Shown here: one piece after another, positions 3,801 to 61,815 of the stretch | How positions within the stretch are numbered: the stretch's first letter is position 1 | How the letters are laid out: the number at the start of each line of letters is the position of its first letter | Source of the DNA: Gongronella butleri | Lineage: Eukaryota; Mucoromycota; Mucoromycetes; Mucorales; Cunninghamellaceae | Direction of reading: 5' to 3' | NCBI GenBank assembly: GCA_025201375.1 | Contig: JAIWZP010000002.1 | Span: 434,001-498,000 of the forward strand | Length of the DNA stretch: 64,000 nucleotides | The notes under the pieces: model-generated | Told to the model about the DNA's origin: nothing | What the model saw: only the letters and a program-made list of their open reading frames with translations | The model's database searches: none | Position numbers and translations under genes: made by a program

Positions 3801-6800
3801 GAAGAGGTTGCGCTTTTCTTGCGCATGGATGGCTTGCGTCTTGCGCGTGTGATGGACAATGCGCTTGCCGTGTGCATGCGCAATGCCGGCCTGTTTGGCC
3901 AAGGCGCCATCAAGGGGACATGGGACCAGCTCATGGACTTGGACGAGTTGCAGTATGCCGTGCAAACCGGCGGCGTGCACACACTGGACGTTGCGAAATT
4001 CCACGTGCGCATGCCCTACGAGTACGTGGCGGCAGACATCATTGACAATGTCGTGAATTTGATCAAATACGTGAAAAGCATCCGTCCGCGGCTCGTGGGC
4101 AGCAACACTCAGCCATTCACCTTTTTTGGCCCGAGCATCAAGGACGACCCGGTGCTGTTGCCGCGCATCCGTCTGCGCTGCGACAAGGTGTGCCTGCAAC
4201 TCGAGGATGATCCATTTGAATCGCGTTTGCGCTTGATTTGGCGCACGGGCCTGGCCGAGCAGCGCGCGCGCTTGGACGTGCTCGATGCGTTTGAGGCAAA
4301 AGCCAAGACGGAGCTCCCGGAACGCGTGCAACACGCACGTGAGCGCCTGGATGAGCATAATTCGCGATCGTGGATCAAGCACATCAACGAAGCCATCCGC
4401 CAAGAAACCATGATGTTCACCCATCGCCACAGCCAGTATTATCGCGCGACAACCGACTTTTTCCAACGCGAACAGGCCATGAAGCATGACGAAACAACAG
4501 TCGAAAACGCGAAAAACGAAAACGAAAACGACGAAAGCGTGGCCAAGGCGTTGTTTGAGATGCCGGTGATGGATCTACCCAAGCACTATGCACTGCTCGA
4601 CTGGACGGCGCGTGACATTGACCTACAAATTCGACCTCCGGACTTTTCTCTTGAAAATACGCGCGCCTTTATGCACGATCTCGGCAAAGGCCTGCCCCTC
4701 GACACCCAATTCTCGACATTGATCCCGTTCCACGTCGATTTAAAGGGCGGCGAGCTGTCTGTGCAGCTGCGCGACTATCCGATTCCCTTGGCACACGTGC
4801 CGGGCGCGTGGCACCTGACAGGCGACTATGTGTTTGGCGACGAGGCGGGCGATCAGGATGGCACGCGCACGGTGCCGATCCCTGTGCTTGTCGACCGCCA
4901 ATTGGGATTCAATTATGTGCTACACGCCGTGCGCGTGTCGTCGCCGCCCAAATTCTACTCGGTCGTCCACATCCGCGTCGACTCGCCCAAGCTCACAAGC
5001 ATCTGCTGGTGCGTGCCTTACCAGCCAGCCATCCAGGATGTCACGCGTACCATGGACTTGCTCACGCGGCCACCCGTCGATCCTTCGGAAAAGGTCGGCT
5101 TCTGGGACAAGCTGCGCCTCATGATCCACACGCGTACCAAGATTTGTTATGCGGGTGACCTCGCTCTCGTCCTAAAGGGCACACGCGACCCCTACGACAT
5201 GACCGACCAAGGTTTTGGGCTCGCCAAGATCTGGAAGGGCAACGTCGTGTGGTGGATGGGCCACGCCAATCCGCAGGAGGAATTCACCCAAATCACCAGC
5301 CAAGATTTGCTCTTTGGCGTCCCCGACCTCATCCATGGCGGCTTCCAGACGCTCTTGTTGGACAATGCCTCGTCCTCCTTCTCCTCTTCCTCTTCGTTGG
5401 AAAAGGACTATCAAGATGACAATGACGACGCCGCATCCCGCACCACCCTCGAGCTGCCCCATCCTTTCCTAAAGATGGCCCTGCGCTTTACAGGCGGCAT
5501 TCGCATGGGCCTCGGCTGCCACCTCGAGCGCATCTGCATCGGCCCTTGCGAAAAATGCGACGGCAAGCCAAATCGCGAAAAATGCAGGCATTTGCATTTT
5601 CTTCCCCATTACAAAGTTCGGTACAAGTGTCCCCGTGCTGTTGCACAGCTGCCTGACCATGGCAAGGTAAAAATGAGATGAAAATGCGATGACATTGGGG
5701 GAAGGCGCGTCAAAATGGAGGAGACGCGTAAAAAAAAGAGCGGCAGAGAAAACGAAAAGAGGGAAAAAAAAAAAAAAGACGCTGACGCGCCCTTTTTTAT
5801 GGCAGGACTATGACGCGTTTGCAGGTTTCCGGTCGCATTTTATCCATTTTTCAATGAGTATCACGAAATTGTCGGACGACGAGTACGCCGATGTGTTTGA
5901 AAAGGAGCGCGACACGGCGCAGCAGTGGATGAACTCGCTGCACCTGACGCCTGGCTTTGTGGAGCACTTTTTGTCGTGTTTCCGTCTGTTTGGCGGCAAC
6001 ATGAGCTACCCGCTGCGTACGGGGTCGTATTATCCACGCGTCGACACGCGTCTGCCCAAGAAATTCGGGTTCCACATGCAGTCCATGAAGTACAAGGTGG
6101 TTGTCGATCCGCTGCGCATTGGCTATTTTTACAAAAACGAGAGTCTAGTGATGGACGACGAGCACAGCATGGATGGGCTTGGCGACGTTGTGGGCCTCAA
6201 GGGGCAAGTCAAGCGATTTGCCGTGGATGTGCACCAGCAGCGCGAAATCAAAAACAACCAGCGGTCCTGGGCCATGACCGAGGCCGAGGTCCAGCTTGTG
6301 CATCTGGATTTGCGTGCCGTGCGCGCGACGTACACCGACCTTGGAGGCACAAGCACCAGCAGCACGAGCGGCGCCGCATCCACGTCCGCAGCCACCACCA
6401 CGACCACCGCCACGACGGTGCTCGACGACTATGAATCATGCATCCACGCCGACCCGGACCTCATGCAGGGCACTGACAGGCACGCCGACGAGAACCAGGT
6501 CGACATCAATTGGGTCGACCACGAGGATTTTGTCGAGCTCAATGTGTTGACGCCGGATGCCCTGCCCAATGTCCACATTCTACCCTTTGCCTACTCGCCA
6601 TGCATGTATTACCTCAAACAAAACGATCCCCAGGACGTCCAGCGCTACCAATACCTCCGCGGCACACACGATTGCATCATCGGCACGGCTCCTGGTAAAA
6701 AAAAAAAAAAAAAAAAAGAAAAAGAAATACGCCCAATTGGGGCTCATTTTCGTGCTTTTTTTTTTTATTAGACACAAGAGACATGCAAATCTCGTTGCTA

Positions 6801-9800
6801 GAGGAGCGTAGCAAAAACATTGACGTGCAAATCCGCAAGCACCAGACACGCCTGCACAATGTCGAGCGCAAGCTACATGAATCGCCCGAGGACGAGGCCA
6901 TCCTGCTCAAAGAGGTAAAAAGTAGAAATTGATCATGCTCATGCGACCTGAATGTTCATATCCATTATTTTCATAGTCAAAAGCGATTGTGGAAAAGACC
7001 GAGATCCTGTTCGAGAAGCGTAATCTGCTGCAGCAATACCTGCGTGAGTTGTCGACCAAGAATGCGCAGTCCAACTCGACGATTTTTGGCCAGGACACGA
7101 TCAAGCGATGGGAAGAGGTCATGGGCCACTTCAAGGTGCGGTACATTTTGCACAATCCTCAAATCATCTGGAACAATTCGATCCGCAACATTGTGTACCA
7201 CTTTATGGACTTGCAGGCGCACTCGCGCGCACTGAAATATTACATGTCTGCGCGGTCGGTCAAGTTTATCCGCGACATTACGAAAAAGTACAAGCAAGAA
7301 CAGCGGCCGCCCAAGCACCATCATCATCAGTATCATACGCATCAAGCGCATGTCGTCGACGATGTGAGCGACAATGAGCTGGACAAGGAGGTCATTCAAG
7401 ATTTGCTCGACCATCTGCTCGCGGAGCGCGCGACCAAGCTGTACGCGACGAATGAGACTGAAAACGACCCGACATTGCTCACCGAGACCATTGATTTGAG
7501 CAACAGCGACCACGTCAACAACCCCGAGATGCAGGCGCGCAGCATCCCACTCGGCTACAGCATCACGAGTTCGTATTTGATTGATTTGCTCAATCCGCAA
7601 GTCAGCCTGCAGAGCGACCACGACCCCAACAACCTGGTGCTCATGCACAATGAGCGCATGCAGGTCAAGGCCATGGCCATCACTGACGACAAGGAGCAGG
7701 ACGAGGAAATCCAATTGGTCAAGAATCGCACCGTCGTCAGCCTCAACAACACGCAATTCTTCGTCGCGAAAAAGGAGCAATTCGACACGGTCGATTTGCT
7801 GCTAGACAACCACTATGGCGCAAAGGGCCACGAGCATTGGCTCGCATGGGTCCCCGCCGAAATGCTCATTCGCTATGTCAAGCGCAGCGACAAGTTCCAG
7901 CGCGTCGGCACACGCGTCTCACCGACCATTTTAATCGATCGCTACAACGATTTGCGACTCAAAGCACATCACCACCACCATCAGCAACATTCCTCGTCGT
8001 CATCGGCCGTCTTTGCCCAATGCCACCCGTTGGAGGAACGATGCGACGCCGTGTACCTGAATTTCCTCGAATTGGCACTGACCGCCGATTCCGCGCAATA
8101 CAATGCGATTTACGAGGTCATTGTCGATTTGCTGCTGTACAAGGAACCTGCTAAAAAGGAGCGATTGGAGCGTTTGCGCGATATCACCATGGCCGCCGAC
8201 CAGGGCAGCCTGCTGTTGGATGCTACCGAAAACATCGTCGAGCTACAGAACCGCGTGCGTCGATGCATTGCACTGCGTGACCAATACCAACACAATTTGG
8301 CCCTGCTCGACGAGAAAAACATGGCCGACTTTAAGCAGGTCCGTGTCGCGTTACAAGATGCATTCGAGGATCTTTACCTTGGCATGGAAGGCTTCAAATT
8401 GCTTCAACAGACCCACAGACGTTCGGCCGCGACAACCATGATGGACGACGATGATGACGACGATGCGCCACACGACACCATTACCTGGAAATTCACGTTT
8501 TCCGCCGCCAAGATTAGCTGGGAAATGCGATTGGACAGCGAGACGCCATTGTGCGAATGGCACTTGACCAACACGACCTTTTCGTTGGTGAACAAGGACG
8601 ACCACTCGCACATCAACACGGCCGAAGTCGACATGCTCTACGTGAAAAACACGTCGACAAACCCGGCATTTGGCGACATTTTGTCCCCCTTTATCGACAC
8701 GACCACCCAAAACAAGAAAAAGCTGCCGGATTTCTCGCGCCACAAGATGCTGCGCTGTTACTTGGTCGCGCTCGCGCCCGTTGGCGGCATCCCCGTCATC
8801 CAACACCTGGAAATCAATCTGTTCCCCATCCGCGTGCAAATGACCTACGACTTTGGCCGCGCCATGGCGTCGTATTTCTTCCCTGCAGAACGCCGGCAGC
8901 AACGCGATGCGGAAAAGCAGCAGCAGCAGCAGCAATCCCTTTTACAGGATGCGCCACAGGTCGCCATCACGCGCACCGCATCGCACCAGCAATTGCATCT
9001 TCAAAATGACCAGCCCCCGCCATCGCCCGCATCCTTTACCGCCACCATCGACTCGTCGAGCGACACCAATACGCCGTCAGGTTCATTGACCGTGTCCGCC
9101 GATCGCCTGCAAAAATCAGCATCAGCTAATTTGGAGTTCAAGGATCGTCGCGACAGCGCCTCCAACCTTAGCACCAGCGGCGGTGGCGGCAGATCGTCGT
9201 ACCCGCGCTCCGCCACCATTGACAATCTGCGCTCCGTCGGCGCCGGCACCGCCGCCTCTGATAGCCTATCGTCATCCTATGATGCACTCGATGTAGCGTC
9301 CACAGACACTTCCAGCTTGTCCACGTCGCCATCGTCCAAACGCAAGCAAAAGCAACTAGCAAAGCAGCAGCAGCAACCGCCGCAGTCGCAGACGCAAGTG
9401 CTACAACAAGGCCCAGACGACCTCGAGGTCATGAAACAACGCGCCACCGGCAACCGCACTTTTATTCTCGTCAAAATACCCGGCACCAAGCATTGTATCA
9501 CCTACAAGGGCCCAAAGGACAAGAACATTGAGGATTTGACCGATTTCGCGTTCCAGCAGCCCTACCTCGAATACAGAAACAAAACTTGGTCGTGGTTTGA
9601 GCTCTTGTCCAACATCAAGCGAGGTAATTGCATGGAAGAAAAAAAAAAAAGAGAACAAAGCAACTCACGCAACTCGTTAGATTTCATGCGCACGGCCCTG
9701 CTGCACAACAGTCGCGCACTGCTCAAGGAAAAACTCACCATCCGCCGCCAACCACGCCATGATTTTAGCTTTGACAGCTTCATGTACCCCGACTCCTCGG

Positions 9801-11119: not shown

Positions 11120-12120
11120 CACATTTTTCAGACTTTACCGGCCTGCTGTGCCTCCAGAAATTTTTTTGCAGCCTTCTTGCCCGCCAATGAAAAATGCGCC
11201 ATGGAGTAAACTATAGCCCAGTGTTCAAGACAGACCCGCGCGATTTTTTTGGACTCGAAAATGCCAAAAATCTCCTATTTTTACTATTTTGCATTCATCT
11301 GTCTACCTGCATGGTCGACCCCGCTCAAAAATAGCCGCATCAAATTCAGCGCTAAATTTGCAACAAAAAAGTTTTAACCCCCAAAGCGCTACGACCACTT
11401 TTGAAAAATTCAGGGGTCACTCAGGGGTCACACTTTTCAATCTCAGAAAATGCCAAATTTGTGAAATTTCGAACTCCGAGTGATCAATGCATCCCAAACA
11501 AATAACTCTGACAATTTGCGATTGGCAGACAAAATGACAAATCGCCCCAAAGTAAGCAAGAAATCCAAAGAGTGACGCATGAACGCCGATCGACTGAGAA
11601 CATTATTGCTTACTTTGGGCAAGATTTTTTACAAAAATTTAAGGTTTGACACTTCCAAATTAAGTTTTGGATTGCATGGAATTTTTATTTTTTTTCTATT
11701 TTTTTTATTTTTTTATTTCGCACATTTTTGTGCGCTGAATGGGCTGGCGCCTGGTGAAATGACCGATGCACAAAGTTAAAACTCAAGCTAGCGTGCTGCA
11801 AGTCATCCCATTAGATGCTTTACACTCCTGTTTGTTAGTAAAACTGCAATAAAAATCGAGGGTCAACTAGACCGATGTCGAGCAAGTCGCGATCAAAGAT
11901 TTTGATGAAAAAGTGGATTTTCTCTGCGAGTTTTAGCTATCCATCGACGAAACTTGTCTCATTCTATAGAGATTCAACAGTTGCTTTCGACACGTTAAAA
12001 GCGACGTGTGTCGTGCTACGGTTGCCGAGAACATCGGGGTTGAAAATGTTTGCAATGTTTGAACGGCTTTCACAAGCGTACAAAGCTCATGCATCGGGTA
12101 AACAAACATTCTGGAAATGA
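11120..12120. repeat. Dispersed repeat, left full-length copy
   Basis: About 1 kb that aligns by eye, with many substitutions and small indels, to 30020-31730. Shared landmarks in the same order are: GCCGGCCTGCT followed by CCAGAA; TCAGGGGTCACTCAGGGGTCACAC; TCAATGCATCCCAAACA; CAAGTCGCGATCAAAGAT-like sequence; TTTTGATGAAAAAG; GTTGCCGAGAACAT; and a terminal GGTAAACAAACATTC-like segment. No transposase-like ORF is evident, so it looks like a non-autonomous or relic element. Confidence 0.7.
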
Positions 12121-12984
12121 CATCCAAATCTTTATTTCTGATTCGAAAAATGCAAATTTCATGGCGATCAAAGAAGAATTTGACCAAGACATTGTTACAA
12201 TTGTGAAAATGTCGATATTTTGCATTCATCTGCACAACGACTGATCGGACCTCGGGCTTTCAACAACATGTTAAAAAAGACGCGAGAAAATAGTCCAATG
12301 AATCAGTCTGGGAGGCGATCCAACAACGGTTTGTGCTGTTACTGTAAAAATTCGATTTGTAAAAATCTTTGAACAATTGTCAACTTTTCAAAATTGTCAG
12401 CAACTCGGTCAAGTTGACCTCTGATTTTTGACGATTTTTGAAAACAAACGCGCGGGAATGATCAAGTGGTACCGTTATCACAATGATCCAACACTCGTTT
12501 TTGGCGTTCATATTCATGAATTTTTCAAGATTTTGTGAAATTGGCGATTTCCTCGATAATGGCCCGATCGATCTCCGATTTTCAATGGTTTTCCGAAAAT
12601 AGAGGCAAGAATCACCCATTTGGTAAATTTTGGCGGTGATTGAAGCATGATTTTGCTGCGAAATAATTTTTTGAAAAACGCGCACAGTCAAATTTTCAGC
12701 AATGTCCATGTTCTCGCTAAACCAGTTGATTGATATCGGTGTTTTGATTTCTTTCTGAAAAGAGAAGAGCTAAATCCTATAGATGGGAAAGTTTCGTGGC
12801 GCTGCAATGAATTTTTGGTGGTGAAATAATTTTTTCACTTTTTGGGGAAAAAGTTGCTTGTATTACCGTACGGTATGTTGGTCTGGTCAAAATGCATCTG
12901 GAGGGTCCCCCGCTTTAAGAGATCCAATCTCAGCAGAAAATCCAAATCCGTTTGGCAACCTACATACCAGCGCTTTGAGAGTCA

Positions 12985-13370
12985 TGTCATTTGGTGCATT
13001 GGCCCCCTCTTTGTAAGCAAATCTGCATTAAAAATCGAGGGTTGGCTTGACGGATCGCGACGAGGAAAAAGCAATCAAAGCCAAATTTTAGAAACTTGAA
13101 TTTCTCGACCAGTTTTGGTCGCATGCCTGTGAAACTGGTCCCATTTGACAGAGAATCATACAGTACAATATTCTGCATTTTTTATCACTGCAAATTTTTG
13201 CCGTGGGTTGCCTTGTCCGTTGCCGAGAAAAGTAGTGAGGTTGAAATCTTAAATCTGGTGGCGTCGTCGCGAGTGTACAAGTGTCACGCATCGACTTTGC
13301 CAAGCTCAAGCGAAATGTTCATTACTGTATGTGCGTCTCTTTCATCTTGTAAATTTTCAGCATAATCGAA
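12985..13370. repeat. Diverged partial copy of the dispersed repeat
   Basis: This stretch shares the order of landmarks seen at 11840-12110: a TAAAAATCGAGGGT box, CAATCAAAG, GAAACTGGTCCCATTTGACAG, GTTGCCGAGAA and CACGCATCG. Identity is lower than between the two long copies. It also matches 18785-19145. Coding potential is absent. Confidence 0.5.
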
Positions 13371-13604
13371 TAACAATTCAGCTTTCTAGAGCCAAAATTG
13401 TGAATTTCTAAAGAAATATCGATTTTCTCGTGAACACGCCCCATCAAACCCCGGTTTTGGCTTTGTGTCCGAGAAGCAAATTGTACAGTATGATACTTTA
13501 CTCAGTACTGTACTATATCCAAAATGCACAAATGACAATACCGTAATTTTCATGGAGCGGCTCAGTAGGGTTTCTCAATGGGCCGCTCAACTCACTCATC
13601 AATT

Positions 13605-15368: not shown

Positions 15369-16969
15369 CTATTCTTGCATTTGCTCCATGCGATCCTAAA
15401 AAAGAAATACAGTAAGATTTTCATCATTTCATTTTAAATGGTTGTTTTCTTACCTTTTCGTGTTTCTTCGTATTGATATGCAGTTTCAAATTGGAAGGCT
15501 TTTCAAAAGCCACGTTGCAGCCGCGAAAAGGACAGACAAATGGCTTTGGACGCTACGTATGATACAAAATAAATGAGATCATTGTGTCATATATAGGCCG
15601 CACTTCATCGGTTGAATGACTTACGCTTTGGTCATGAACCTTCTTATGGCTCCTCAAATCGTCAAGCGAATAAAATGCCTTGTCGCAGCCCGCCACCTTG
15701 CATTTGTAGGAGCGCTGGCGCTAATAAAACAAAATAAAGGAATGAGATCATGCTCAAATCATGTCCAGCGCCAGTCACACGTGTACAGTACATTCGCCTG
15801 ATGAGATTGTTTGTGCCGGTTGAGAGTCTTTTTATGCATGTAGCTCTTGCCACAATTGGGAAAATCGCAAACAAACACCACAGCCGACGCCTAAAAATGA
15901 AAGAAAAATCATGAATGGTGGATCGTCGTGGATGAAATTTGCGCATCTCTTACTTGATGTTGTGTTTGGTTATCGCGACCAACTTGGCTTGAACTCTTTT
16001 GGGAAAAATCATAAGAGTAAAAAAAAAAAAAAAAAAAAAACCGCGTCAGACAAGCAATGACCCTGCTTTTTTTTTTTTTTTTTTGTCATATTTTGCCTGA
16101 GCGGGATGCGCTTTTGCCATGTGTTGATCCAAATGGGATTGAACTTCAAATGCAGCACAGCAACCAGGGACTGGGCAAACGGGCAATGGCTGATAAAATA
16201 AAATAAAAATGAGAAAAATTGACATTTTTCATCAAAAATCTTACCTGAAATTGATGGACAGCGCGCATATGGTCGTCAAATTCACGCTCGTTGAAAAAAG
16301 TCAGGAGACAATCTCTCATGACGCACTTGATTCGAGTTGTCTAGCAGAAAACAAAAAAAAAAAAATGAGACAATTTTGCATGCGACGCTGTAAAAAAGAC
16401 TGTATTACCTGAGTGCCATGAATTTCCTCGACGTGGCGCATCACAGCGTACTTTTTTTTGAAGGATGAAGGACAGCCCGGAACCGGACAAGGGATTTTCG
16501 GCTACGCATGACACAAATTAGATGAAAAACGCGAGCATTTTCATCACTTACGAAACCGTGCACATCAATTTGGTGCCTGTAAAACACCTCCTCCTTGCGA
16601 AAGATTAGGCCACAGTCGCACCAGAATCCCAACTAAAAAAATAAAAAAATAAAAAAAATAAAATCAAAAAAATGCAATTTCGCAATACTGTAGGTGATGA
16701 TGAATGTGTCCTACCCGAGCCTTGTTGATGGGTTCCACCTTCACGATGCGCGCCTTCAAATGACGATAGAATGCCTGCAAAAGCATTTCGTCTCGTGTGC
16801 GAGCCTCGCGCGCCGCCAGTAGCGCCAACTTATCAACGAATTGACGCGGATTGACGTTGTGACACGACGTCACCGACAGCCCAAGTGGCGACATGAGCCG
16901 GTTGACATGAGAGACGGTGAGGTAATAAAGGTCCCTACAAGAAAATCCTTATTGTCAGGAGCTATTCGC

Positions 16970-17012
<43 letters not shown>

Positions 17013-18496
17013 ATTTTCTCATTTCATGCGTCTTTTCCTTACTGCGCAGCCACATTGACGATCGGGTCGGAGAGACCAGTGCCGATGAATGTCTTGAATG
17101 GGATCATGTTGGTATGCGCGGACAAATCAGAGGTCTTGATATGGTCATTGGTGATGTAGTCCTTGAGCAGCTGCATTTTGCCAGGCAAAACGTCAAGGAC
17201 CGATTCGACAGCAGCTAAACCAGCGCGGACCAGCTCGAAATTGCGTGAATTTTCATCAGCAATCGAGATGCGGAGCTTCCAAACGGTCTTCTTGTTTTTC
17301 TTCTCGGCCACGCTGATGTACAACAAGCAACTGCCACCAATCTTTTCAAAGCGGTCTTGAACCCAGCGCAAAAAGTCGTCTTTTGTTGAGGAGAGCTCCA
17401 ATAGGTACTTGCGCGACACACCATTGTTGACGCATTGAGAGTGAGAGCCATACACACTGCCATCAGCTTGCACAAAGCCCAAAATAAAAGACATGAGAGC
17501 GAGGATGTACGCTTCCATGTCATCAAAGTCATCTTCATCGAACCACTCGTCCACGAGATCCTGGATAAAATCGAGAATTTGCGAGGAAGGCAATCCAAGT
17601 TGCCTCCAAAGGCGGCATATTTCCTCAACAAAAATTTGCCACGTTACATTTCCAAAATGGCCACCTTGAAGTGAGGTGTTTGTAGCTCCGGCAGCAATGA
17701 ACCTACAAAAAATTGAGGATAGTGAGTCAATTTGCTGCGCAAAACGACCATTTTGCAGATCCTACATAAGATTCAGATTTGGAATGCCAACGGTTTGGAG
17801 CAAATCAGCAAGTTCAATCATAGACGTTGATCTCTGACGGACACCAAAGAGAGCACTTGTTGAAGAATGGATGCCGTCGCCTGCCATGAACGCGTAAAAA
17901 TACGCCCTCAGAGGATCGACAGGGCCAGAAAGAAGATCAGCGGATATGTGGTTGTCATGCGCGCCAGAAAATCTGGCAGGAAGCGCACCGGCACGGAGCG
18001 GAAGATTGCGGACGTGAAAACTGGTGCTGATGAATGGGCCAGCGGTCGATGTGGAACCAAGTCCTGTGGAACCATGGACCAGCTGCACGGCTTCCGTAAT
18101 GCTAATAATACTCTGCTCGTCAGTGGCTTCATCACTTTCGTCGTCGTCGTCTGTGTCGTCATCCACAAATGGCTCCTCATCGTCCTCGTCTTCATCCGCG
18201 GCGCCATCAGTGCCCACGCCTTGGTCATATCTCGTGTGCGAATCGCTGCTGCCAAGATCGTAGCCATCATCGTCATTGGTGATTGTGCCAGACTCGCGGC
18301 TGCTTGGTTCGTAAGAATCTTCTTCCACGGCCATGATGGCGTCAGAATCGCTGTCATTGACCACAAATCCGTCGAGATCATCGACGCTCATGTCGCTGCC
18401 CGAGTCATCAGAGTCGTAAGAATCATTCGTTTCATCGCAAGTGTCACCAGGATCATCAGAATCGTGAAATGAGTGAGGTGGGGGTGAAATGTCCAT
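15369..18496 (-). CDS. HO-like LAGLIDADG endonuclease fused to C2H2 zinc fingers
   Basis: Twelve exons on the complement: 18496-17766, 17702-17043, 16934-16715, 16632-16552, 16501-16409, 16340-16245, 16189-16097, 15995-15954, 15890-15798, 15720-15625, 15552-15454, 15395-15369. They give 776 residues in frame. Residues 1-150 are very acidic (Asp/Glu/Ser). Two LAGLIDADG motifs follow: FYAFMAGDG (200-208) and ILGFVQADG (317-325), both keeping the catalytic Asp and the Gly. The 117-residue spacing fits a one-chain endonuclease. Residues about 465-490 (start DLYYLTVS, end SCHN) resemble the C-terminal Hint block of inteins. After residue 537 come one atypical finger (CDC start) and six C2H2 fingers. 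By family this should be a site-specific double-strand DNA endonuclease in the nucleus, with DNA contacts added by the fingers. A TATAAAA lies about 65 nt upstream of the ATG (559-565 of the 18 kb block, i.e. 18559-18565). Function is inferred. Confidence 0.85.
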
Positions 18497-30019: not shown

Positions 30020-31730
30020 GAAAAGACGTTGCTCAGGCTTTGCCGGCCTGCTATCCTTCCAGAATTTTTTTCACAGCCTACTCACCCGCCAATGAAACCT
30101 GTGTCACGGCGTAAACTATACTGTAGTAGCATAGAGTTCAAGACGGACCCGGGCCCGACTTTTTTTTGGACTCGAAAATGCCAAACACCTCCTATTGTAT
30201 TTGTACTACGTATTTTGCATTCATCTGTCCATCGATCGGTTTAAGGTTGACCCCGCTCAAAAACAGCTGGATCGCATTCAGCGCAAAAATTACAACAAAA
30301 AAGCTTAAAACCCCAAAGCGCTACTACGACCACTTTTGAAAAATTCAGGGGTCACTCAGGGGTCACACATTTCAATCTCAGAAAATGCCAAATTTGGGAA
30401 TTTCGAACTCCGAGTAATCAATGCATCCCAAACAGATAACTCCGACAATTTGCTATTGACAGACAAAACGGCAGCAAGTCGCCCCAACGTAAGAAAACGG
30501 CCCAAAGAGTGACGCATGAACGGCGATCGACGGAGAAAAGTGCCTACTTTGGACAAGATTTTTTTTGCAAAAATTTAAGGTTTGACACTTCAAATTTAAC
30601 ATTTACGATATATGGACAAGCTCCAATTAAGTTGCGTGGATTGCATGATTTTTATTAATTTTTTATTTTTTTGGCACTGATGATACTGTAACCGCTGAGT
30701 GGTGGCGAGCTGCTGCAACCTGCAGAAATGACCGATGCAAAAAGTTCAAACCCAAGCTAGCACACTGCTGCAAGTCATCTGTCATCTCACCATTGGATGT
30801 TTTGACCCCTGTAGAGTATGTTAGCAAAACTGGAATAATAATCACAGGATTTTTAATATTGTACATACTGTATTATACAGTACTGTACAGTAGACAGTTA
30901 CTGTTGTATCGAGCAAGCAAATTAATTAATCGCTCGCGATCAAAAATTTTGATGAAAAAGAAGTGAATTTTCTCTGTGAGTTTTATCCATCATCTCTCAT
31001 CTGTGAATCTAGTGAACAAGACAGAAAAGACGGGACTACTAAAAGTACGGCTTTACAGTAATGGGGAAAAGAAAGATGAGAGGGAAAGAGAAAGAGAGAC
31101 TAAGGGAAGCTGGGAAGGCGAGCTTAAATAAAGGGGAATGGATGATTCAGGGTCAGACATTCAGCTGTGTGCGAGCTGACCGGAGTCTCGGGCAGTGCAA
31201 AGGGTCCGATCATGGGAATCAATGCATTGCTGCATTGTTGGGCACCCTTTTTTGCATCCAGCGCGTCATGCTACGTACTGTATCATATGATACAGTACAC
31301 GAAGAAGGAGGGGCAATGTGATGAGTGCTAATGAGCGTCACGCGTAGCCGCAGCACATGCTGCTGATGCTGTGTTTTACCTTTTACGATATGCACTACTG
31401 TAATATGGAGCGTGTGCTAGGAAAAGCAAGATGTCAGGCCTTGTGTGCAACCGAGAATGAATCTTCTTGGCTGTGATCTGCTGCCTTGCATGCTCTAATG
31501 ATCCATGTCAAGATTGACATCATCCATTGATGAAACTAGTCTCATTTGATATGATAGAAATTCAACAGGTCTGCCTTTGACACGTTAAAAGCACTGCGCG
31601 TTGTCAATAAATCAGTTGCCGAGAACATTGAGATTCAAAATTTTTCAAATGTTTGAATGAACGGTTTTTACAAGAGGGCAAAGGTCACGCACCGGACAAA
31701 CATACAAACATTCCAGAAAAAATGACGTCC
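30020..31730. repeat. Dispersed repeat, right copy, interrupted by about 530 bp
   Basis: Colinear with 11120-12120. The match breaks inside GAGTTTTATCCATC near 30990 and resumes at ATCCATTGATGAAACT near 31522. ATCCAT is present on both sides (30985-30990 and 31522-31527), consistent with a target-site duplication. The remaining 30020-30990 and 31528-31730 parts keep the same landmarks as the left copy. Confidence 0.7.
30991..31521. mobile_element. Candidate 530-bp insertion nested in the right repeat copy
   Basis: This segment is absent from the homologous place at about 11938 in the left copy. It is bounded by ATCCAT repeats. It has no clear terminal inverted repeats, no coding capacity and a perfect 24-bp palindrome at 31275-31298. 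It could be a short non-autonomous element, or the left copy could have a deletion; the flanking repeat favours insertion. Confidence 0.5.
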
Positions 31731-32659
31731 AAGTGTGTTTCTTTTGAATGGTGCCCGTTTGCGTACGTACTGTAGAATTCCCTCATTCACAGACTGAAGT
31801 GAGATAAAAGCCAGGGGAGAGGGGACCATTGACTGGTTGTCGCGAAAAACGCAATAAGCTGCGATTTTTCATCTTAAAGCAAAGTCAATGAAGATTGGCC
31901 TCAGTGCCTTGAAAGTTATTTCATTAGAAAGAACTCGACTCGAAGCATGCGGAGACATCGTTGATCTGCCCAAAAAACGACTTTTTGGCATGTTTGTGAT
32001 ATGATATCATAACACAGTTTCAAAATCATCAGATGTATTTTTTGACGCGTCGTGATGATGAACCGCGTCAGTCGACGATTGACACGCGTCTGTTACTAAT
32101 AAAATACAGTAGTTGCAACAGGAGTATCTCTTGCTAATGGACGCGTCAGAAGAATGGCGACGAGGGTGCGCTTTTGCCGTGGCATTTGCCCATGAAATTA
32201 AATCAAATATCCCGCATTGCTCGTCAACGAGGGCATGGACCAAGCTCTTTTTTTTTTTTTTTTACCTTTTCTGCGGTTTGACCGATCGGCCCCTCTTGAG
32301 GGCAATTGGGTCCCAATCGGCGAACCTGAATTTTCAATTTTGCATTCGAGGGCTGGAAAGGCCGATTTTGCCTTTTTGCGTGTGGCGCGCCAACATGCTA
32401 GTTGATAGCGCGCGAGTTGCTTGCCCCTCGACGTTTCTGGCTCGTCGTTTGACGTTGAGACGCGTTTGGAGCTGCTGGAGTGCGTGATTGCGCACAATTA
32501 CCGGTACCTATAATTTTTCTGCAAAATGGATGCAAAGATAGAAAATATTTTCTAAACTTTAGCGGTCTCAAATATGATAAAAAGAAATGTGAAGCCACCC
32601 ATTTTTCCGGGCCATTGAGCCATTCATTTCTGTGACAGGATGTGTGACATTCGGTCAAA

Positions 32660-61130: not shown

Positions 61131-61231
61131 TAGTGGGCGCGGGTTGCTGGTGTGGGGCGCGCGGATTGGGGTGTGAGGCGCGCGGATTGCTGAAGTGAAG
61201 TGCGCAGGTTGGGATGCAGGGCGTGCAGGTT
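61131..61231. repeat. GC-rich minisatellite of about 18-24 bp units
   Basis: Four to five imperfect units with the core GGCGCGCGGATTG or its variants (GGGCGCGGGTTGCTG, GTGCGCAGGTTGGG, GGGCGTGCAGGTT). It sits directly before the 148-bp tandem repeat. Confidence 0.75.
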
Positions 61232-61815
61232 TAATTTAAGATTTCTGTCGCGCTTCGTCAGTGAGAAATGACGATTTTCACCAACAGCACAAATTTAGCA
61301 CAATCTCAGCGAAACCTCATCGTCCTCGCGTTTCCTCGGTACATATCGCGTCTCTCATGACTATTCTTGTCTGGTTTTAATTTGCAATCTCTGACGCACT
61401 TCGCCGGTGAGAAATGACGCGTCTCATCAAAATTGTGCAAACTTGATACTAGCTCAGGAAAAATGCATCACCTTCGCGTTTACTCTGCACATCTCGCGTC
61501 TCTCATGATGGTTCTTGTGTGATTTTAATTTGGAATCTCTGACGCGCTTCGTCGGTGAGAAATGACGCGTCTCATGAAAATTGCATGAATTTGGCACTGG
61601 CTTAGAAAATACGCATCTCCCTCGCGTTTACTCTGCACATCTCGCGTCTCTCATTATTGTTCTTGTGCGGTTTAAATTTGGGATCTCGGACGCGCTTCGT
61701 CATCGATAAATGACGCTTCTCATCAAAATTGCATGGATTTGACATTAACCCGGCAAAAACGCTTTGCTTTCGCGATTCCTCGATATATCTAGCGTCTCTA
61801 ATGCTTAAGTTTACG
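61232..61815. repeat. Tandem array, four units of about 148 bp
   Basis: The landmark GCGCTTCGTC recurs at 61250, 61396, 61544 and 61692, a spacing of 146-148 nt. Each unit carries GAAATGACGCGTCTCAT, CATCTCGCGTCTCTCAT and TTAATTTGGAATCTC in the same order; the last unit is the most diverged. There is no long ORF. Confidence 0.85.

Follow-up and report, generated by a model that had tools for sequence, protein, structure and literature searches.

LAGLIDADG endonucleases of group I introns reside in self-splicing introns, mostly organellar, and to our knowledge are not equipped with zinc-finger arrays. The closest described nuclear systems come from budding yeasts. HO of Saccharomyces, which contains an intein-like region, is a single domesticated gene active at MAT (PMC7282813). 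WHO genes of Torulaspora and Lachancea encode free-standing LAGLIDADG-superfamily nucleases with C-terminal zinc fingers, and the fingers of both HO and WHO are of a Cys-X-X-Cys, GATA-like type (PMC7282813). WHO loci at FBA1 have the order full gene, nuclease gene and old gene end, and Coughlan et al. 2020 (PMC7282813) explain this order by cutting of the sensitive gene and repair from the element-bearing chromosome, such that a resistant end replaces the old one and the old end is left as a fragment. Among the literature matches listed, no such family appears outside yeasts. Here we describe a gene within a 64,000-nucleotide stretch of DNA (the window) that likely encodes a free-standing two-motif LAGLIDADG nuclease, the targeting of which a C-terminal C2H2 array probably extends, and whose family we consider likely to be nuclear homing elements working like yeast WHO. 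We infer cleavage of DNA, selection of sites by the fingers, homing and resistance.

The window gene lies on the minus strand (18496..15369), and its 12 exons are spliced into a 776-residue protein. Exon 1 (17766..18496) contains the ATG, an acidic tail that forms the N-terminus with 51 Asp/Glu within the first 135 residues, and a first LAGLIDADG-like motif, FYAFMAGDG (residues 200–208; 17873..17899), and ends at a junction whose position and phase are common to paralogues. Exon 2 (17043..17702) encodes the end of repeat 1 and all of repeat 2, including the motif ILGFVQADG (residues 317–325; 17459..17485). Exon 3 (16715..16934) encodes a conserved linker (DLYY...) and, like its counterparts in most other paralogues, joins in phase 2. 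The spliced model and the strict finger pattern C-x(2-4)-C-x12-H-x(3-5)-H together define the remaining architecture, in which each finger sits in a separate phase-0 exon: an atypical CxC finger at residue 542 in exon 4 (16552..16632), followed by C2H2 fingers in exons 5 (16409..16501), 6 (16245..16340), 7 (16097..16189), 9 (15798..15890), 10 (15625..15720) and 11 (15454..15552). In the spliced model, exon 8 (15954..15995) is a short linker exon and the least certain of the 12, and exon 12 (15369..15395) supplies the last codons and the stop. Of the 11 introns, nine have GT-AG ends and two have GC-AG ends, the GC donors following exons 7 and 9. Because the positions and phases of introns 1 and 2 recur in most paralogues, the start of the exon chain is supported independently of RNA data over these first two introns. 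The gene is free-standing, with its own start, stop and introns and no exteins. An earlier note on this DNA had proposed the same gene model, and its coordinates, its 776 residues and its motifs at residues 200 and 317, 117 residues apart, are correct; of the seven zinc fingers that it counted, six are strict C2H2 fingers and the seventh is the atypical one at residue 542. Its proposal of nuclear encoding is borne out by the spliceosomal introns and the 33-Mb assembly.

Using exon 2 as a protein query, we found ten loci in the 33.0-Mb genome (110 contigs), and with three family members as queries the search returned 15 places, comprising the ten loci and five partial matches (C22:428688, C1:1154222 with two in-frame stops, C26:477275, C18:477229 and C25:505589). 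We built nine cores across exon junctions, from the window gene and eight paralogues; for C44, C1 and C17, the junction of exon 1 with exon 2 was picked to keep the frame and is uncertain. The C29 copy was left out because its reading frame is seemingly broken at motif 2 (L015, oriented 4508–4720), as in a decayed member. The intron after the first repeat and the intron at the AQ|D(L/F)Y junction have a phase common to most members, and the C46 copy has no later introns. Downstream of the nuclease exon, the strict C2H2 pattern occurs at 9 of 10 loci compared with 0 of 10 in an antisense control; the locus missed by the strict pattern, C1, has finger-like frames by a looser one. The family therefore appears to be old, with introns and fingers presumably in place before it spread. 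A tree of the nine cores separates a clade of C44, C1 and C17 from a clade of the window copy, C79, C46, C21, C16 and C23 (1.04 Mb). Within the C21 nuclease gene, a 589-bp tandem duplication (L010 6016–6600 / 6606–7187; 87% identity) holds several C2H2 finger frames, and duplicating a stretch of fingers in this way could be one means of acquiring a new binding site. Adjoining the same gene, in this eukaryotic genome, is an Eco57I/N6-methylase-like frame (L010:8139–8816, plus strand).

We next examined the nuclease assignment by profile comparison. The LAGLIDADG_3 family (PF14528, cut-off 22.5 bits) matches above the cut-off with exon 2 alone (24.7 bits) and with the core (23.6 bits) and below it with the whole 776-residue protein (21.1 bits); the same family matches three of nine cores at E up to 1, and in a genome-wide PF14528 search at E up to 0.01 the window exon is the only entry listed. 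A profile of the nine cores searched against all PDB chains gave 39 matches at E up to 10, 38 of them to LAGLIDADG nucleases, with a best E-value of 1.8e-6 (engineered I-CreI) and a next of 0.0031. These comprise I-CreI and many variants, an I-DmoI/I-CreI chimera, I-HjeMI, I-AniI, I-CvuI and I-OnuI derivatives, and three entries bearing only variant names, which we take to be engineered I-CreI. The family resembles the group I intron enzymes I-CreI, I-AniI, I-OnuI and I-HjeMI in that its profile matches around their LAGLIDADG motif, and motif 2 forms the core of both the LAGLIDADG_3 and the PDB matches. The single window core gave two chance-level matches by phmmer against PDB, neither a LAGLIDADG nuclease. 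Paralogue cores share 20–28% identity with the window core, the mean column identity of the nine rows is 38%, and only 12 columns are invariant, among them the G and D of motif 1 and the G, D and G of motif 2. Both catalytic-type aspartates are kept in all nine rows, 110–123 residues apart. Three results concern repeat 1: a first-repeat profile picked out three PDB chains, the best at E 0.27, with no LAGLIDADG nuclease among them; the same profile matched no LAGLIDADG family in Pfam; and hhalign of repeat 1 against repeat 2 gave no alignment, at a probability of 2%. An AlphaFold2 model computed from the window sequence without an alignment had a mean pLDDT of 35 and was unusable. From sequence, motif 2 is thus identified as LAGLIDADG by Pfam and by PDB profile, and the reading of motif 1 as a LAGLIDADG motif rests on the conservation of its Asp; since repeat 1 has no independent profile match, we assign the first half by motif, place and invariance.

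The earlier note had called the gene an HO-like LAGLIDADG endonuclease with C-terminal zinc fingers, with both DG motifs carrying a catalytic Asp. The motif 2 profile matches, including those of the LAGLIDADG_3 check described above, uphold the enzyme type and its fusion to fingers; as to the two motifs, each Asp is present in nine of nine rows, and motif 2 is the one confirmed by profile. The comparison with HO survives as an analogy of architecture, in that both are nuclear genes that combine LAGLIDADG motifs with zinc fingers and have no exteins. Membership of the HO family falls, as the protein has no Hint or Hom_end match and a different type of finger, and, in contrast to the single HO gene (PMC7282813), the genes described here form a multi-copy family with no intein-like region found in the window protein. 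An intein origin, also suggested earlier, finds no support: the Pfam scan of the window protein listed 17 families at E up to 10, with no Hint/splicing or Hom_end family among them, and the gene stands alone, with no Hint match, instead of lying in frame within a host protein. By analogy, the family may work like HO and WHO, and we place it in neither. Searches of 5.8 billion proteins with residues 190–520 of the window protein (E 1e-3), with the nine-row alignment (E 0.01) and with one paralogue (E 0.01) gave no match among the best 7,999 candidates scored, the best 7,996 candidates scored and the 7,127 candidates that shared words, respectively. In viral contigs, 2 and 75 stretches matched the search patterns and none codes for a relative, and the nine rows gave one weak match in PHROGs (E 0.047, one row) and none in NCBIfam at E 0.1.

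Self-comparison of the regions around the ten loci (24.5–40 kb each, 298 kb in total) revealed that four of the ten, C46, C17, C1 and C44, are bracketed by direct repeats whose copies lie 5.0–6.6 kb apart. Each of these four loci, all in one genome, has the order full host gene, nuclease gene and gene-end fragment, with host genes named from Pfam matches of their frames. At C46, the repeat (1,114 bp, 95.5% identity) is the 3′ end, the last ~1.1 kb to the stop codon, of a P450-flavodoxin-FAD/NAD gene; P450, flavodoxin and FAD-binding frames, located upstream on the same strand, are taken together as one fusion gene, and the repeat copy lies beyond the nuclease gene. At C17, the repeat (419 bp, 95%) corresponds to the 3′ end of a gene that resembles FAD-binding monooxygenases and runs on the opposite strand, with the copy on the other side. 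The C1 repeat (924 bp, 87%) contains the 5′ end and upstream sequence of an AAA gene by Pfam, which we read as ClpB-like from its sequence, and the C44 repeat consists of three decayed pieces (265–504 bp, 72–76%) from a GH15 gene's 5′ end and the sequence upstream of it. By their appearance, the fused P450 and the glucoamylase with a KR-type leader are similar to genes of fungi. When the whole genome was searched with a single copy of each repeat, the matches among the best candidates scored were the bracketing copies alone for C17 and C44, the bracketing copies and one 48-bp match for C1, and the bracketing copies and paralogues of 70–75% identity on C25 and C19 for C46. No private bracket is seen at the remaining six loci, the window included, over the regions that were compared. 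On the tree, bracketed members make up 3 of 3 in the C44/C1/C17 clade compared with 1 of 6 in the other, a clustering that is not significant (68 of 500 shuffles were as low). Mismatches between copies are closely packed at the coding-side edge of the C46, C17 and C1 repeats, and an 18-bp stretch at the C46 edge has three silent differences that leave the peptide unchanged; because part of this density is run-out into unrelated flank and because other dense 20-bp bins occur inside the repeats (five at C46, up to 13 at C1), the signal at the edge is no more than suggestive.

Consistent with this arrangement, the reading that we favor for the family follows the WHO model. On a chromosome that lacks the element, the nuclease would cut close to an end of a host gene, and the break would be repaired from the homologue that carries the element, so that the nuclease gene is copied in. 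The same repair would exchange that end of the host gene for a recoded, resistant version, and the old gene end would persist as a fragment beyond the nuclease gene. By this analogy, the WHO-style reading fits the four loci, with the 5′ end involved in two cases (C1 and C44). The WHO elements (PMC7282813) and the family described here have in common a free-standing LAGLIDADG-superfamily nuclease with C-terminal zinc fingers, the order of target gene, nuclease gene and target-end fragment, here at four loci, and the occurrence of decayed copies. Unlike WHO, this family has no intein-like (Hint) part that we could find, carries C2H2 in place of Cys-X-X-Cys GATA-like fingers, has spliceosomal introns, has four different targets as opposed to mainly FBA1, and occurs in 5′-end as well as 3′-end versions in either orientation (PMC7282813). 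The host probably also differs, as the density of its introns suggests that it is not a budding yeast.

The window copy itself is an intact-looking member without a recognizable bracket, and for this reason it shows only the protein type. It lies in a low-GC stretch with dispersed repeats, and a thiolase frame is located ~2 kb away on its strand. Two candidate brackets were rejected: the pair 30033–30843/11128–11857, which a genome-wide search showed to be dispersed, and the pair 13063–13478/18786–19186, taken as dispersed from its better matches in another region examined. A sensitive comparison of the two sides of the window gene gave one strong match (429 bp, 62% identity), which matches another region better and which we take to be a second dispersed repeat, and a search across the window gene, on its other side, for a relic of the flanking-gene end found none. 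A dispersed repeat with no recognized coding function occupies 11128–13478 and recurs at 30033–30843 and 31522–31732; a 730-bp part of it occurs at no fewer than 40 places (from 1113 candidates), 83–87% identical apart from itself. More of the 11128–13478 stretch recurs at the C1 locus. Separately, positions 61230–61803 contain local direct repeats of ~430 bp, with a 69% match downstream of the nuclease gene at C23:1.04 Mb. The window copy may be an old insertion with a decayed fragment or a copy in cellular use.

Cellular use could mean domestication in the manner of HO, in which the window gene no longer homes and encodes a nuclease that introduces programmed breaks for the cell, as in mating-type or surface-gene switching. 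An intact frame of 776 residues with both aspartates and the lack of a bracketing target fragment in the window are in keeping with this explanation, and yet loss of the fragment through decay accounts for the window locus equally well, and the family at large, with at least ten dispersed and very divergent loci, one broken frame, five further partial matches and four target duplications, has the look of a mobile element. We therefore regard domestication as unlikely, and favor the homing-element reading for the family. Less probable again is that the family consists of DNA-binding regulators that combine an inactive LAGLIDADG domain with C2H2 fingers, as in bacterial WhiA for the LAGLIDADG part. 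The acidic tail and finger array do resemble a transcription factor, and the Pfam matches are weak and reach three of nine rows only; against this, invariance of both aspartates in all nine rows stands out from a mean column identity of 38%, and regulators would give the bracketing repeats no reason to exist, such that we consider this explanation very unlikely.

The bracketing repeats could also be ordinary local duplications unrelated to the nuclease, in a genome that does contain other repeats, such as a dispersed family and copies arrayed in tandem within loci, and this too is a poor prospect given that all eight direct repeats of at least 100 bits with copies at least 2 kb apart in the 298 kb span the nuclease gene, that four loci copy the end of the neighboring gene with no further close copy found, and that the spacing between copies is 5.0–6.6 kb at all four. 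The count of eight, which falls at five loci, is to be read with the design of the comparison, as all regions surround family loci with the nuclease gene central, which favors spanning repeats, and as two of the eight spanning matches are not counted as brackets: the dispersed window pair and a weak 105-bit pair at C46 with copies 22 kb apart. Two repeats do not span the nuclease gene: at C29, a direct repeat of 86 bits, which is under the 100-bit threshold, and at C23, an inverted repeat of 178 bits.

Together, these data lead us to favor the homing-element reading, and, with confidence only somewhat above even, a broader proposal: that the family is a second, independently assembled lineage of WHO type outside yeasts, in which a LAGLIDADG–C2H2 nuclease moves among unrelated host genes within a single genome and swaps their 3′ or 5′ ends for recoded ones, with changes in the finger array, such as the tandem finger duplication in one copy, aiding retargeting. 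If this is true, elements of this kind arose more than once and can strike many genes. The family would then offer natural pairs of nuclease and finger array whose likely target sites are marked by the edges of the repeats, and target choice and retargeting would become directly testable.
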